The notes under the pieces: generated by a model
Databases searched by the model: none
What the model was told of the DNA's origin: nothing
Seen by the model: the letters and a program-made list of their open reading frames with translations, nothing else
Shown: positions 55,277 through 62,625 of the stretch, piece after piece
Position numbering within the stretch: the stretch's first letter is position 1
How the letters are laid out: every line of letters begins with the position of its first letter
Translations under genes and position numbers: made by a program
Source of the DNA: an uncultured Verrucomicrobiota bacterium
GTDB taxonomy: Bacteria; Verrucomicrobiota; Verrucomicrobiia; Opitutales; Opitutaceae
Assembly: GCA_903898675.1 (NCBI GenBank)
Contig: CAIUGM010000033.1
Span: 62,001 to 126,000, forward strand
DNA: 64,000 nucleotides
Direction of reading: 5' to 3'

Positions 55277-55972
55277 CTAGCCTGAACTGATCTTCTCCAG
55301 GGCGAGCGTGACCGCCGCCGTGCGATTCTCCACCCCGAGCTTCGCGAAGATGCTCTCGAGGTGTTTTTTCACCGTCGTAAGCTTGATGCCGAGGATGATG
55401 GCGATCTCGGGGTTGGTCTTGCCCTGCACCACCCAGGAAAGGAGTTCGGCCTCCCGCGGGGTCAGGCTCAGGGCCTTTCCCAAGGCCGCCGGACTGGCGT
55501 CGGCAACCGAGGCCGGCCGGCCGGCGCCGGATTGCCGGCGCCGGCGCAGGCGCGCGGAAACCGCCGCGAGCAGGTCGGCCGGCTCGACCGGTTTCACGAG
55601 ATAATCGTCGGCACCGAGGTTCATCCCGGTGCGCTGGTCCTCGCGCTCGCTCCAGCCGGTGAGAAACACAAACGGCAGGTGCGCGGTCGTCACATCGGCG
55701 CGCAGGGCCTCGAGCACGCGATGGCCGTTCATTTCCGGCATCGTGATGTCGCAGAGCACCAGGGCGGGCTTTTCCCGCCGCGCGAGCTCGACGCCCTCGC
55801 GACCGTGGCGGGCCTCGATCGGCTGGTAGCCCTCGGCCGCCAGCAGCGCCGCCATTTGCCGGCGCATCTTCGCATCATCGTCGATCACGAGGATTTTTTC
55901 CACGCCCGAAAGCTGGCGGCCGCCCCGCGCGAAGTAAAGCGGACAGCGCGGCGGACCGGCCGTGAAATTCAT
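55277..55972 (-). CDS. NarL/LuxR-type response regulator
   Basis: A 231-residue response regulator. The receiver (KILVIDDDAKMRRQMAALL) has phospho-Asp in LVLCDITMPEMNG and Lys in YLVKPVEP; the C-terminal LuxR-type helix-turn-helix has LTPREAELLSWVVQGKTNPEIA and LTTVKKHLESIFAKLG. A Ser/Ala/Arg-rich linker of about 25 residues joins them. Start could be ATG 55972 (used here) or GTG 55903, which begins at the receiver domain. It has no partner kinase next to it, though two kinases lie 2-6 kb downstream on the other strand. Confidence 0.9.
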   Translation of the reverse strand: MNFTAGPPRCPLYFARGGRQLSGVEKILVIDDDAKMRRQMAALLAAEGYQPIEARHGREGVELARREKPALVLCDITMPEMNGHRVLEALRADVTTAHLPFVFLTGWSEREDQRTGMNLGADDYLVKPVEPADLLAAVSARLRRRRQSGAGRPASVADASPAALGKALSLTPREAELLSWVVQGKTNPEIAIILGIKLTTVKKHLESIFAKLGVENRTAAVTLALEKISSG

Positions 55973-56034
55973 TGGCAGGCCGCGCTCCGCCGGCGATTCT
56001 TCCGCCCGACGCCGGCCCTCCGCGTTTCTTCCGC

Positions 56035-57210
56035 TTGTTAAACGCCTCCCCCAACTCCCCTCCGATCATACCGGCCCGCATCGGCGACGCGGGCGGAACG
56101 GCCAGGGTCCATATTGACGGACACACCGGGCTGCGCGGCATCGCCGCCATGGTCGTGGTGCTCGGCCACATGCGGTTGAACGAGTGGTTCCCCGGCGACC
56201 TCACGGATTTGCTCGGCCGGTTCGTTTCCTGGGAGGGGGAGGCCGTGGACCTCTTCTTCATGCTCAGCGGGTTCATCCTCTACCATAATTACCCGCCCCG
56301 CGAACGCGTCAGCTGGGCCGACTACGCGCTCGCCCGCTTTGCGCGGATCTACCCGCTCTTCCTCCTGTGCCTTGTCCTGTGCGTGGCGTTGGATGCGTAC
56401 ACCTACCTGCTGTTCGGGGTCGCCAAGGACAACCTCGATCCCAGCAAAATCCTGATCAACGTCCTCCTGCTGAACGGACTCTTCGCCAACGCCCCGCGCG
56501 CCAGCATCAACCCGACTTCCTGGTCGGTGTCCATCGAGGCCATCCTGTATTGCACGGCGTTTCCACTCCTGAGCCTGCTGGTGAAAAACTGGCGCGCCGC
56601 GGCCAGGCTGGGCCCGGTCCTGCTGATCGGCGGCCTCACCGCGCTGCTGACGCTGCTCTACCTGCCGTCTGCCGCGGGCGGGGGCGGGGGCGGGGCCGGA
56701 TCGTCCTACCACTACCTTCTCCGGGGCGTGCTCGCGTTCTCCATCGGGTTTTTTATCCGGCTGACCCTGGACGCCAATCCCGCGCCGCCGCGGCGGGCCG
56801 GAAGTGCCGTGCTGGGTGCGGTCAGTGTGCTCGGCGTGGCGGTCGTCCTGTTTTTCCGGCTGCCGCGCGCCCTGCTGATGCCGTGCTTTGCGGTGCTCGT
56901 CTATGCCACCGCCACCAATGACACGCCGCTGGCCGGTTTCCTGAAGCGGCCCGTCTTCCGTTTCCTGGGCACCCGGTCCTACTCGATCTACCTGATCCAC
57001 TATCCCGTCCTCTTGCTGCTCTACCGGTGCGTCCTGTTCCCCTCGCGCTACCAGGCGGGTTTCACGACCGCCGCGAAGCTCGTCACTTTTCCCGGCCTGC
57101 TGATTGCCACGCTGTTCCTCGCCGAGTTTTCCTACACGCATTTCGAATCCCCGGTGCGGCGCTACCTGCGGGTCCGGTTCAAGCGGCCGGCGCCCGCCGG
57201 CCCGACCTGA
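56035..57210 (+). CDS. Acyltransferase 3 family membrane protein
   Basis: An inner-membrane O-acyltransferase of about 391 residues. No ATG precedes the domain, so the start is a TTG, either 56035 (used) or 55972. The domain starts HTGLRGIAAMVVVLGHM with the conserved R and H, then LFFMLSGFILYHNY and YALARFARIYPLFLL. About ten helices follow, including SYSIYLIHYPVLLLLYR near the end. The family modifies polysaccharides or lipids. Divergent from the LuxR-type regulator. Substrate not known. Confidence 0.82.
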   Translation: MLNASPNSPPIIPARIGDAGGTARVHIDGHTGLRGIAAMVVVLGHMRLNEWFPGDLTDLLGRFVSWEGEAVDLFFMLSGFILYHNYPPRERVSWADYALARFARIYPLFLLCLVLCVALDAYTYLLFGVAKDNLDPSKILINVLLLNGLFANAPRASINPTSWSVSIEAILYCTAFPLLSLLVKNWRAAARLGPVLLIGGLTALLTLLYLPSAAGGGGGGAGSSYHYLLRGVLAFSIGFFIRLTLDANPAPPRRAGSAVLGAVSVLGVAVVLFFRLPRALLMPCFAVLVYATATNDTPLAGFLKRPVFRFLGTRSYSIYLIHYPVLLLLYRCVLFPSRYQAGFTTAAKLVTFPGLLIATLFLAEFSYTHFESPVRRYLRVRFKRPAPAGPT

Positions 57211-57285
57211 CCGATCGGCCCGTGCCCGGGCGGCCCATGGTGCGGCGCGGGGAATTGTGGCATGCTCCGCCCAGCCAACCCCGCC

Positions 57286-57723
57286 ATGACTCCGCAGGAA
57301 ATCACCCTCATCAAGAACTCCTTCGCCAAGGTCGCGCCCATCGCGGACCAGGCCGCCGCCATTTTCTACGCCCGCCTGTTCGAGCTCGATCCCGCGCTCC
57401 GCGACCTGTTTCAGGGCGACATGAAGGAACAGGGCCGCAAGCTCATGACGATGCTCGGGGTCGCCGTGAACAGCCTCGAGCGCATCGAGCAGCTGGTGCC
57501 CGCCGTCCGCCAGCTCGGCCTGAAGCACGCCGGCTACCGCGTCCGCGAGGAACACTACGAGACCGTCGGCGACGCCCTGTTGTGGACGCTGGCCAAGGGC
57601 CTGGGCGCCGAGTTCACCCTCGATACGCGCATCGCCTGGGGCAAAACCTACTGGCTGCTGGCCGAGACGATGAAGGCCGGCGCCCGCGATGGCGCCGCCA
57701 AGGCCGCCCGCGCCGTGGCCTGA
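57286..57723 (+). CDS. Single-domain bacterial haemoglobin (globin)
   Basis: A 145-residue globin of the Vitreoscilla haemoglobin/flavohaemoglobin-globin type. It begins TPQEITLIKNSFAKVAPIAD, has LFQGDMKEQGRKLMTMLG, and the proximal (F8) His in LGLKHAGYRVREEHY. ATG 57286 matches the family start; an ATG at 57262 would add 8 residues. There is no reductase domain, so it needs a separate reductase or serves as an O2/NO binder. It lies 110 bp upstream of a large hybrid kinase in the same direction. Confidence 0.92.
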   Translation: MTPQEITLIKNSFAKVAPIADQAAAIFYARLFELDPALRDLFQGDMKEQGRKLMTMLGVAVNSLERIEQLVPAVRQLGLKHAGYRVREEHYETVGDALLWTLAKGLGAEFTLDTRIAWGKTYWLLAETMKAGARDGAAKAARAVA

Positions 57724-57833
57724 ACCGGCCGGCGGCCGCCGCTCGATTTTCCCTGATTTGATGTTCGGGAGTAACCGGGGTGCCGGGCGCGGCGGAAGTC
57801 CGCCGTTGCCTGCACCCCGTTTGTGCTTATCCG

Positions 57834-60800
57834 ATGTGGCCCGCGATGCCCGATCCTGCCCGTTCCCTTTCCCCCGAACCGCTGCCGGCGCAGGTCGCGG
57901 AGCTGGCCCGCCAGCTGGCGGCCGCGCAGGAGGCCCTCCGGCAAAGCGAGGCCGGCCGCCGCGAATCGCAGGATTTTTTCACCAAGTCGTTCCAGACCAC
58001 GCCGGCGCTGATGATCATCGCCCGCCTGTCCGACGGCCATGTGCTCGAGGCCAACGGCGGCTTCGAGCAGATCTCGGGCTACACGCGCGCCGAGGCGGTG
58101 GGCCACAGCACGCTGGAGCTGGGCCTCTGGAACGAGCCGGGGGCGCGCGATGCGTTCATCGCCCAATTGCGGCGCAACGGCCGCATCCGTGACTTCGAGG
58201 GCGTCTTCCGGGCCAAGGGCGGCGAGGCGCGGCACCTCCTGATCAACGCCGACCTCGTGGAGATGAACGGCACCACCTGCATGCTGACCGTCGGGGTCGA
58301 CATCAGCGAACGGCTGCGGCGCGAACAGGTGCAGAACGCCACCTACCGGATTTCCCAGGCGGTCCTCGCCGGCGGCGACCTGCCGGTGCTGTTCGCAGAA
58401 CTGCACCGCATCATCGCCGGCCTGATGACCGCACCGAACTTCTATGTCGCCCTCCTCAGCCCCGACGGCCGCCAGTTGAGTTTCCCCTACTTCGTGGATG
58501 AGACCGTGCCGGTGCCGCCGCCGGCCCGCAAACCCGGCTACGGCCTGACCGAATACGTGCTGCACACCGGCCGGCCGCTGCTCAGCACCGCCGACGAACT
58601 CACCGTGCTCCTGCGCGACCACAGCCGCTACCTGCCGCTGGGCCAGCCGGCCGCGCTCTGGCTGGGGGCGCCGCTCCTCATCGACGGCCGCCCCATCGGC
58701 GTGATCACCGTGCAGGATTACCATAATCCACAGGCCTATGGCGAGGAGGAGAAACGGCTGCTGCTGTTCGTCGCCGACCAGGTGGCCGCCGCCGTGCACC
58801 GGCGCCGCACCGAGGCGCTGCAGCGTGAGTCGCAGGATTATTTTGCGAAGTCCTTCCAGGCGAGCCCGGCGCTCACCGCCCTCGCGCAGCTGCATGACGG
58901 GCGGATCATCGAGGCCAACGCCGCCTTTCTCCGCGCCTCGGGCTACACGCGCGAGGAAGTCCTGGGCCGCACGTCGCTGGAGCTGGGCATCTGGCCAGAG
59001 CCGACGCACCGCGTCGCCTTCATGGAACAGCTGCACCGGACCGGCAGCGTCCGCGACCACGAGGCCGTGTTCTACACGAAGGAGCGCGAGGCCCGCTACG
59101 TCTCGCTCAACTCCGACATCCTCGAGCTGGAAGGCACGCGCTGCATGCTCATCACGGCCATCGACCTGACGGACCGGCGCCGCCGCGAGCAGGTGCAGGA
59201 TGCCACCTACCAGATCTCGCGCGTGCTGCTCACGGGCGGCGACCTCCCGGCGCTGTTCGCCGAGGTGCACCGCTTGATCGCGGGCCTGATGCCCGCGCGG
59301 AATTTCTACGTGGCGCTCCTGAACGCGGAGGAGTCCGAGCTGAGCTTCCCGTATTTCATCGACGAGCACGTGCCGGAGGCGCCCGCGCGCAAGCCGGCCA
59401 ACGGCTTCACCGAGCTGATCCTGCGCAGCCGCCGGCCCCAGCTGCTCGCGGCGGACGAGCTCGCCGCCCTGCTGGCCGGGCACGGACCCTACCAGCCCCT
59501 CGACCGGCCGGCCGCGGTGCGGCTGGGCGCCCCGCTCCTCATCGACGGCCAGGCCCGCGGCGTCATCGCGCTGCAGGACTACGACAACCCGCGCGCCTAC
59601 GGCGAGGAAGCCCTGCGCCTCCTGACGTTCGTCGCCGACCAGGCCGCCGGCGCCGTGCAACGCCGGCAGGCCGAGGAGGCCCTCGCGCGCGCCGAGCAGC
59701 AGTACCGCGGGATTTTTGAAAACGCCCTGGAAGGCCTCTATCAGTCCTCGCCCGACGGCCGCTTCCAGCGCGTCAACCCGGCGCTGGCGGGCATGCTCGG
59801 TTACGACTCTCCGGCGGAGCTCCTGGCCGCCGTCAACCGGATCGACCGCCAGTTCTACGCCGACCCGGACCGCCGCGCGCAGTTCCTGGAGCTCGTCCGT
59901 GTTTCCGACGAGGTCACCGATTTCGAGTCCGAGGTCGTGCGGCGCGACGGGACCCGGCTGTGGATTTCCGAGTCGGTCAGCGTGCTGCGCAATGCCGGCG
60001 ACGAGGCGGTGCTTTTCGAGGGCGTGGCCATCGACATCACCGCGCGCCGCGAAACCGCCCGCTCGCTCGAGGCGGCCCGCGAGGCGGCCGATGCCGCCAA
60101 CCGCGCGAAATCCCAGTTCCTGGCAAGCATGAGCAACGAGCTCCGCACGCCGCTCAACGGCATTCTGGGTTACACCCAGATCCTGCGGCGCGACCCGGCC
60201 CTCACGGAGAAGCAGCGGGACGGCCTCGGCATCATCCACCAGTCCGCCGACCATCTCCTCGCCGTCATCAACGATGTGCTCGACCTCGCCAAGATCGAGG
60301 CCCGCAAGCTCGAGCTGCATCCGGCCGAATTCGACCTGCCCGAGTTTATCCGGGCGGTGGAGGCTTTCTTCCAGCCGCGCGCGCGCGAAAAAAACCTGCT
60401 GCTTGAGACGGCGTTCGCCGACGACCTGCCGCAGGTGGTCACCGGCGACGCGCAGCGGCTGCGACAGGTGGCGTTCAACCTCCTGAGCAACGCGGTGAAA
60501 TTCACGCAGAGCGGCGGCGTCGTGTTCTCCGTGGAAAAATCCGGCGAGAAAATCCGTTTCTCCGTCAGCGACAGCGGCCCCGGCATCGCCCCCGAGGACC
60601 AGGCGCAGCTGTTCGAGCCCTTCGCGCAGCTCGGCGACCACCGCCGGCACGCCGAGGGCACGGGGCTCGGGCTCAACGTCAGCCGCGGCATCGTGGAGCA
60701 GATGGGCGGGCGGCTGCTGCTCGAGAGCCGGACCGGCTGGGGCAGCCGCTTCTGGTTTGAGGTGCCGTTGCCGGCCGCGGTGGGCGCCGCCCCGCTGACG

Positions 60801-61484
60801 GCCGCCGCCCCGCACCGCATCACCGGCTACACGGGTGCCCGCCGCCGGGTGCTGGTGGCCGACGACCAGGCGACCAACAGCAGCCTGCTGGTCGAATTGC
60901 TGGCCCCGCTCGGTTTCGAGGTGACCACGGCCGGCGACGGGGCCGAGGCCGTGGCCCGCGCCCGCGAGCGCCGGCCCGATCTGGTGCTGCTGGATCTCCG
61001 GATGCCGCGCATGGATGGCTTCGCCGCGGCCCGCGCCATCCGGGCCCTGTTCCCCCAGGACGGCCCGCCGCTCATCGGGATCTCCGCCAGCGCCTTTGAT
61101 CCCGACCGGCAGGCGTGCCTTGATGCCGGGTGCGCGGAATTCCTGGCCAAGCCGTTCCGCGAGGAGCAGCTGCTGGCCATCCTCGAGCGCCAGCTCGGCC
61201 TGGAATGGAACTACGTCGAGGGAACCGGGCCGGAAACCACCGCGCCGTTCCCCGCCGTGCAGCACGCCCCGGAAGCCGCCGATGCGGACACGCTCTTCGA
61301 GCTCGCCAGCAAGGGCGATGTGCTGGGCGTGCGCACCTTCGCCGCGCAGCTGGCCGAGCGCGACCCGCGCCTCGCGCCTTTCGCCCAGGCCGTCACCGAC
61401 CTGGCCGCCCGCTTCCGGATGAAGGCCATCCGCCAGTTCGTCGCCCGCTACCGCGCGCCGGACGCCCCGGCGCCAAGCCCGTGA
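57834..61484 (+). CDS. Hybrid sensor histidine kinase lacking the phospho-accepting His
   Basis: A 1216-residue cytoplasmic protein: PAS (about 45-160), GAF (165-320), PAS (333-450), GAF (453-610), PAS (620-740), HisKA (745-815), HATPase (870-985) and a receiver (1004-1120), plus a C-terminal helical tail. The two PAS-GAF units are clear duplicates (QDFFTKSFQTTPAL and QDYFAKSFQASPAL). In the H-box the usual MSHELRTPLN reads MSNELRTPLN: Asn768 (codon AAC 60135-60137) replaces His. The ATPase motifs (LLSNAVKFT, DSGPGIAPED, GTGLGLNVSRGIVEQMGG) and receiver Asp1054 (LVLLDLRMPRMDG) are intact. Start could be GTG 57780, ATG 57834 or ATG 57846. Confidence 0.92.
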   Translation: MWPAMPDPARSLSPEPLPAQVAELARQLAAAQEALRQSEAGRRESQDFFTKSFQTTPALMIIARLSDGHVLEANGGFEQISGYTRAEAVGHSTLELGLWNEPGARDAFIAQLRRNGRIRDFEGVFRAKGGEARHLLINADLVEMNGTTCMLTVGVDISERLRREQVQNATYRISQAVLAGGDLPVLFAELHRIIAGLMTAPNFYVALLSPDGRQLSFPYFVDETVPVPPPARKPGYGLTEYVLHTGRPLLSTADELTVLLRDHSRYLPLGQPAALWLGAPLLIDGRPIGVITVQDYHNPQAYGEEEKRLLLFVADQVAAAVHRRRTEALQRESQDYFAKSFQASPALTALAQLHDGRIIEANAAFLRASGYTREEVLGRTSLELGIWPEPTHRVAFMEQLHRTGSVRDHEAVFYTKEREARYVSLNSDILELEGTRCMLITAIDLTDRRRREQVQDATYQISRVLLTGGDLPALFAEVHRLIAGLMPARNFYVALLNAEESELSFPYFIDEHVPEAPARKPANGFTELILRSRRPQLLAADELAALLAGHGPYQPLDRPAAVRLGAPLLIDGQARGVIALQDYDNPRAYGEEALRLLTFVADQAAGAVQRRQAEEALARAEQQYRGIFENALEGLYQSSPDGRFQRVNPALAGMLGYDSPAELLAAVNRIDRQFYADPDRRAQFLELVRVSDEVTDFESEVVRRDGTRLWISESVSVLRNAGDEAVLFEGVAIDITARRETARSLEAAREAADAANRAKSQFLASMSNELRTPLNGILGYTQILRRDPALTEKQRDGLGIIHQSADHLLAVINDVLDLAKIEARKLELHPAEFDLPEFIRAVEAFFQPRAREKNLLLETAFADDLPQVVTGDAQRLRQVAFNLLSNAVKFTQSGGVVFSVEKSGEKIRFSVSDSGPGIAPEDQAQLFEPFAQLGDHRRHAEGTGLGLNVSRGIVEQMGGRLLLESRTGWGSRFWFEVPLPAAVGAAPLTAAAPHRITGYTGARRRVLVADDQATNSSLLVELLAPLGFEVTTAGDGAEAVARARERRPDLVLLDLRMPRMDGFAAARAIRALFPQDGPPLIGISASAFDPDRQACLDAGCAEFLAKPFREEQLLAILERQLGLEWNYVEGTGPETTAPFPAVQHAPEAADADTLFELASKGDVLGVRTFAAQLAERDPRLAPFAQAVTDLAARFRMKAIRQFVARYRAPDAPAPSP

Positions 61485-61545
61485 GGCGAATCTTCGCGAT
61501 GACCGTTCTCCGTTCACCTTCCCTCTCACTCTCACTTCCGCCCTG

Positions 61546-62625
61546 ATGCCCGCCACGATCCTCATCGTCGACGATACTCCCGCCAATCTCAGCGTGCTGG
61601 TCGACACCCTGTCGGAAGCCGGCTACAAGCTGATGGTCGCCGAGGACGGCGAGGACGCCCTCGCCCAGACCGCGCGCACCCAGCCGGATCTCGTGCTGCT
61701 CGACGTGATGATGCCCGGGCTGGACGGATTTGAAACCTGCCGCCGGTTGAAGGCGCAGGCTGTGACCCGCGATGTGCCCGTGATTTTCATGACGGCCCTG
61801 ACCGACACGACGGAAAAGGTGCGGGCGTTCAACGCCGGCGCGGTCGATTACATCACCAAGCCCATCCAGCATGAGGAGGCGCTCGCGCGCATCGGCACGC
61901 ATCTCACGATCCGCCGGCTGCAACAGGAACTGAAGCAGCAGCTCGCGCTCAAGGAGCGGTTCATGCGGATCGCGGGGCACGACCTGCGGAATCCCCTTTG
62001 CCTGATTCTCATGTCCGGCGAACTCGCCCGCCGGAAGGGCGCCACGCCCGCGGTCGCGGAATACCTGGAGAGCATCCACGGCTCGGCGCAACAGATGCGC
62101 CGGATCATCGACACCTTCCTCAACCTCCGGAAACCGGGCGACGAAGCCCGCAGCCCGATGGACCGGGCCGACCTGAACCTGGTGGCCGCCGCCGTCGTGA
62201 CGCAAAATGAACCGGCCGCCGAGCGGAAGCAGCTGGTCCTGGGCGTGGAACTCGGCGACGACCTCCCGCTGGCGAAGGCCGACGCGGGCAGCACCTACCA
62301 GGCGCTCAGCAACTACCTCAGCAACGCGATCAAGTTTCACGCGCCTGGCGGACGCATCGTCGTCCGGACGCGGCTGGCCGGCGCATTCCTCCGCGCCGAA
62401 GTCCAGGACCAGGGCCCCGGCATCGCGGCGGCGGAGCGCCCCGCGCTGTTCACGGAATATGCCCGGCTCTCCGCCCGCCCCACCGGCGGCGAGGACAGCA
62501 CGGGGCTGGGACTTTCCATCGTGAAGCAACTCGTCGAGGCCGATGGCGGCAAGGTTGGCGCGGATTTCCCCGCGGAAGGCGGGGCGGTTTTCTGGTTCGA
62601 GCTGCCGGTCGCGCCGGGAGCGTAG
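61546..62625 (+). CDS. REC-histidine kinase (orphan-type hybrid)
   Basis: A 359-residue protein with an N-terminal receiver (ILIVDDTPANLSVLVDTL; LVLLDVMMPGLDG; TKPIQHEEALARI) and a C-terminal kinase. The HisKA motif is FMRIAGHDLRNPLCLIL with the His present; the ATPase has LSNYLSNAIKFHAPGG, DQGPGIAAAERPA and STGLGLSIVKQLVEADGG. It has no transmembrane segment. It lies 61 bp downstream of the hybrid kinase that lacks its own His, and could act with it. It is convergent with a DUF5069 gene, 5 bp apart. Confidence 0.92.
   Translation: MPATILIVDDTPANLSVLVDTLSEAGYKLMVAEDGEDALAQTARTQPDLVLLDVMMPGLDGFETCRRLKAQAVTRDVPVIFMTALTDTTEKVRAFNAGAVDYITKPIQHEEALARIGTHLTIRRLQQELKQQLALKERFMRIAGHDLRNPLCLILMSGELARRKGATPAVAEYLESIHGSAQQMRRIIDTFLNLRKPGDEARSPMDRADLNLVAAAVVTQNEPAAERKQLVLGVELGDDLPLAKADAGSTYQALSNYLSNAIKFHAPGGRIVVRTRLAGAFLRAEVQDQGPGIAAAERPALFTEYARLSARPTGGEDSTGLGLSIVKQLVEADGGKVGADFPAEGGAVFWFELPVAPGA

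Follow-up and report, generated by a model that had tools for sequence, protein, structure and literature searches.

The question raised by this locus is whether a hybrid sensor histidine kinase with asparagine in place of its phospho-acceptor histidine represents an evolved signalling arrangement, a recently disabled enzyme or a single wrong base in an assembly. The kinase (HK1) is encoded in the window, i.e., the whole stretch of 64,000 nucleotides that was analysed, and has the following features:

57849–61484, + strand: HK1, hybrid sensor histidine kinase of 1,211 aa, recognized by its ORF, Pfam domains and orthologs
60129–60158, + strand: H-box MSNELRTPLN (bases ATG AGC AAC GAG CTC CGC ACG CCG CTC AAC)
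60135–60137, + strand: acceptor position, AAC (Asn), residue 763; CAC or CAT (His) in 10 of the 10 orthologs found
60477–60674, + strand: ATP-binding boxes N, G1, F and G2, all intact
60477–60503, + strand: N-box NLLSNAVKF
60570–60590, + strand: G1 box DSGPGIA
60615–60629, + strand: F-box EPFAQ
60654–60674, + strand: G2 box EGTGLGL
60987–61007, + strand: receiver phospho-acceptor Asp motif LLDLRMP, intact
61143–61157, + strand: receiver Lys motif LAKPF, present

Residue numbering begins with the ATG at 57849; translation could alternatively start at a GTG at 57780, giving a longer ORF. The Pfam domains follow each other in the order PAS-GAF-PAS-GAF-PAS-HisKA-HATPase_c-REC, succeeded by a tail of approximately 90 aa, and the matches to HisKA (72.9 bits), HATPase_c (100.8 bits) and Response_reg (87.8 bits) are all above the cut-off within a single protein. 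Residue 763 corresponds to position 11 of the HisKA profile, and the E-x-x-T motif adjoining it is intact. The initial annotation had read the H-box as MSNELRTPLN by the codon AAC at 60135–60137, which the bases confirm. Its description of the ATP-binding motifs and the receiver Asp as intact also holds, with the N, G1, F and G2 boxes and LLDLRMP all present. HK1 therefore resembles HisKA hybrid kinases (PF00512 + PF02518 + PF00072) in its domain set over the curated cut-offs, its ATP boxes and its receiver Asp and Lys, but differs from them in the H-box phospho-acceptor, which is Asn instead of His, and this in the source genome only among those examined. In HisKA kinases, the acceptor His is the site of autophosphorylation.

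Orthologs of HK1

A protein search of 57 genomes (the source genome and 56 relatives) gave seven clear orthologs of HK1, the best pieces of which were 59–76% identical, and a further scan, of named genomes, returned 16 loci, eight of them aligning over nearly the whole of HK1 (five already among the first seven and three new). Together, these are 10 distinct orthologs in 10 other genomes, a count that leaves out, also for the acceptor residue, the other eight scanned loci (L100–L107, 24–34% identity) and makes no use of two further stretches (L038 and L039). The eight orthologs from named genomes come from MAGs labelled Opitutus, Lacunisphaera, Opitutaceae, Opitutae or Verrucomicrobia, which makes a member of the Opitutaceae the very likely host. 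All 10 orthologs have His at the acceptor position, encoded by CAC in nine and by CAT in one, so that HK1 differs at this site by one substitution from ten His-keeping sister proteins. The H-box is slightly variable elsewhere, three of the 10 reading VSHELRTPLN, with Val for Met at its start. Moreover, among the first 30 loci there were 22 weaker paralogous matches (L009–L030), with His in every H-box found by the search expression.

The Asn is private to the source genome among the genomes examined. An evolved signalling arrangement is not supported: the initial annotation had named His in all orthologs as a refuting observation, and His is present in 10 of the 10 found. As judged from the orthologs, the ancestral state is a hybrid kinase with an acceptor His located upstream of a REC-kinase. 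A conserved pseudokinase family was also considered and is rejected, as none of the 10 orthologs has a non-His residue: HK1 has its acceptor His replaced, as a DivL-like pseudo-histidine kinase does, and no ortholog shares the replacement.

Conserved gene neighborhood

HK1 lies in a block comprising a response regulator on the opposite strand, a globin, the hybrid kinase and the REC-kinase:

55277–62625: whole block; kinase pair in 10 of 10, regulator in nine of 10 and globin in eight of 10 ortholog loci
55277–55972, − strand: REC-LuxR (GerE) response regulator, its homolog at least 65% identical in the loci that have it
57262–57723, + strand: globin-family protein upstream of HK1, its homolog near HK1 in the loci that have it
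61546–62625, + strand: HK2, REC-HisKA-HATPase_c kinase of 359 aa directly downstream of HK1, recognized by its ORF and Pfam domains

Conservation of the block was assessed by tblastn at E up to 1e-15 in the flanks retrieved around the orthologs. The next gene had been annotated as a REC-kinase with an intact His, and HK2 indeed reads GHDLRNPL at 61975–61998. Since HK2 immediately follows HK1 in each of the 10 ortholog neighborhoods, a functional link between the two is supported, and the conserved neighborhood suggests joint action of HK2 and the ancestral hybrid kinase. The REC-LuxR regulator is possibly the output of the HK1-HK2 pair, and the block as a whole may, as a guess, be a gas- or redox-linked phosphorelay. 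For studies of signalling in the Opitutaceae, this conserved set of REC-LuxR regulator, globin, hybrid kinase and REC-kinase is perhaps more useful than the Asn.

Constraint on HK1

Private changes were scored in eight aligned sequences (the source genome and seven orthologs) at gap-free columns only, which left part of the sensor region unscored because of a shorter ortholog of about 1,000 aa (G023) in the alignment. The other seven orthologs agreed at 345 columns, of which 337 were invariant and eight deviated in HK1 (residues 442, 504, 527, 666, 711, 718, 763 and 1190). By the same measure, the two nearest relatives had 4 and 10 private changes and the others from 10 to 66, while HK2 of the source genome had three. 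H763N was the only private change of HK1 within residues 735–990, and there was none in the receiver. General decay of the gene was not seen, the number of private changes at the scored columns being no higher than expected from the relatives (8 versus 4 and 10), and until recently HK1 therefore seems to have evolved under normal constraint. Nothing but residue 763 sets it apart, a pattern that fits either a very recent mutation or a single wrong base.

Frequency of the substitution

The source genome (G000, with the window at C33:62001-126000; 3.52 Mb in 40 contigs, 99.95% complete, 0.66% contamination) has 45 matches to the HisKA profile, 41 of them over the curated cut-off. The census was made in profile coordinates; a crude H-box census by regular expression missed many kinases. 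At profile position 11, His was found in 44 of the 45 matches and Asn in one, HK1.

A strict DNA motif for the H-box, ATG-WSN-[codon]-GAR-MTN-MGN-ACN-CCN-MTN-AAY, was counted in 250 family genomes; in protein terms it stands for M, a residue that is mostly S or T, the acceptor residue, and then E-[L/I/M]-[R/S]-T-P-[L/I/M]-N. It occurred 1,466 times with His, in 217 of the 250 genomes, and once with Asn, in HK1; no other residue was found at the acceptor position of this motif in the 250 genomes (codons not starting with C, starting with C but without A in the second place, or CAR). Looser H-boxes, including those of three of the 10 HK1 orthologs, fall outside the motif, and for these the figure is that of the source genome alone, 44 of 45. 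In a phylum-wide draw of 387 genomes, which overlaps the family genomes and in which only the Asn motif was counted and hence has no His denominator, there was no Asn motif beyond HK1. A wider clade with an Asn-type H-box of this strict form was therefore not found, HK1 being the only case in the 250 family genomes and the 387-genome draw. A substituted acceptor His, with Asn among the replacements, is reported for about 1% of histidine kinases (PMC5361649); the strict-motif rate of 1 in 1,467 is lower, as expected, since the strict motif favors well-kept kinases. The Asn of HK1 exceeds motif-level noise, given 44 of 45 His in its own genome and one Asn against 1,466 His in the family.

Interpretation of the substitution

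Histidine kinases with a His-to-Asn replacement are an already known kind (PMC5361649). The literature searches listed no paper on a natural His-to-Asn kinase of this group. DivL of Caulobacter, with Tyr for His, resembles HK1 in its histidine kinase fold, multi-PAS input and replaced acceptor (PMC5361649); however, the role of DivL is characterized, whereas HK1 has undegraded ATP boxes and a replacement that no other genome examined shares. RcsD is comparable as a member of a two-kinase phosphorelay that is without the conserved kinase-domain His, but it is described as a phosphotransferase with an HPt domain (PMC3762810), whereas HK1 has no Pfam match to HPt at E up to 0.001. EnvZ H243A is like HK1 in having a single substitution of the acceptor His with the rest intact. 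NtrB H139N, which did not occur in the papers listed by a literature search for it, is another acceptor-dead laboratory allele; unlike HK1, it and EnvZ H243A are laboratory-made, in simple non-hybrid kinases.

The explanation towards which we lean, with restrained confidence, is that the Asn of HK1 is a real and recent kinase-dead allele, probably arisen by a single C-to-A change (CAC to AAC). The ancestral HK1 would have been an ordinary hybrid histidine kinase with an acceptor His, in a block with the globin, HK2 and the REC-LuxR regulator, and the change of CAC to AAC would have taken place in the source genome alone among those examined. By analogy with acceptor mutants, the Asn form should bind ATP without autophosphorylating at residue 763 and without feeding its receiver or HK2; it would still fold and dimerize, with its receiver intact. 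The PAS/GAF signal input would then no longer deliver phosphate to HK2 or to the receiver of HK1 itself, leaving HK2 to work alone once the acceptor of HK1 had been lost. What we infer here is that the kinase is dead, that the allele is recent in the population and which way phosphate flows.

Loss of autophosphorylation is what is usually expected of such a replacement, and His-to-Ala in EnvZ is reported to abolish it (PMC4734776, PMC5727384). The kinase-dead status of HK1 is nonetheless not certain, because labelling by ATP was reported for RcsD, which is without the conserved His of the kinase domain (PMC3762810). Any phosphatase activity retained through the intact E-x-x-T would make HK1 a net negative element. 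This last inference is weak because, besides the E/DxxT/N motif adjoining the acceptor, which matters for dephosphorylation, the His itself has been implicated in that reaction (PMC5727384).

It is somewhat unlikely, yet a realistic prospect, that the Asn is instead a sequencing, assembly or minority-strain consensus error and that the kinase of the organism has His. The change fits such an error: a single base, private to one genome, at the acceptor residue, shared by none of the 10 orthologs and accompanied by no other private change at conserved columns of the catalytic core, in a genome of 40 contigs; the eight orthologs from named genomes are from MAGs. Against it, the assembly is not visibly poor, being 99.95% complete and 0.66% contaminated with a stop in none of the 45 HisKA matches, and the eight private changes of HK1 lie between the 4 and 10 of its two nearest relatives, with three in HK2; one wrong base would, however, leave no further trace. 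Quite unlikely, in turn, is a functional pseudokinase of the DivL type, in which the Asn would be maintained so that HK1 could sense or titrate a phosphorylated receiver, or modulate HK2 with no flow of phosphate. Regulation of another kinase by a His-substituted histidine kinase has a precedent in DivL (PMC5361649), and HK1 does combine intact fold motifs and receiver with a multi-PAS input and an adjacent kinase conserved as a partner; but the Asn occurs in none of the 10 orthologs and thus shows no sign of being kept by selection. Nor are the ATP-binding boxes degenerated as they would be in a settled pseudokinase.

Very little probability is given to the proposal that the Asn is real and fixed in the species and that HK1, as a newly arisen pseudokinase, holds the adjacent REC-kinase in check by acting as a sink or sensor of phosphate. 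Least probable of all would be a mixed dimer, in which the Asn subunit, through an ATP-binding domain that is still intact, phosphorylates a partner such as HK2 on its His. The co-location of HK2 with its intact His is compatible with this, and EnvZ offers a parallel: the ATP-binding domain of the acceptor mutant still phosphorylates the His of a partner subunit that does not bind ATP, so that phosphorylation is restored in trans when H243A is paired with a subunit dead in ATP binding (PMC4734776). The kinase cores are, however, distant, HK1 of the window and HK2 of the relatives being approximately 30–33% identical over approximately 225–290 aa. In addition, histidine kinases mostly form homodimers, which speaks against such pairing.

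If the base is real, the recent kinase-dead allele would be a natural version of the textbook acceptor-dead mutant within an intact and conserved two-kinase pathway, and HK1 could show how histidine pseudokinases begin. One more unshared case of a substituted His adds little unless the base is verified.

Sensor region, tail and a related kinase

The sensor part of HK1 (57960–59675) consists of a tandem-duplicated PAS-GAF unit, the two copies sharing 59% identity across 285 aligned positions. In the shorter ortholog G023, the two units match the same stretch, and this protein thus seems to have a single PAS-GAF unit. The tail after the receiver (61206–61484, approximately 90 aa) matches no Pfam family at E up to 0.001. 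It contains no fully conserved His in the eight aligned sequences and therefore does not look like an HPt domain; near its end, all eight share a conserved LAARFxMKAIRQF. A further kinase of the source genome (L075, G000:C14:35869-36228) has, within a single open frame of 579 aa, two HisKA matches whose starts are separated by 213 bases and each of which has its own His; it is a possible case of a tandem acceptor domain.
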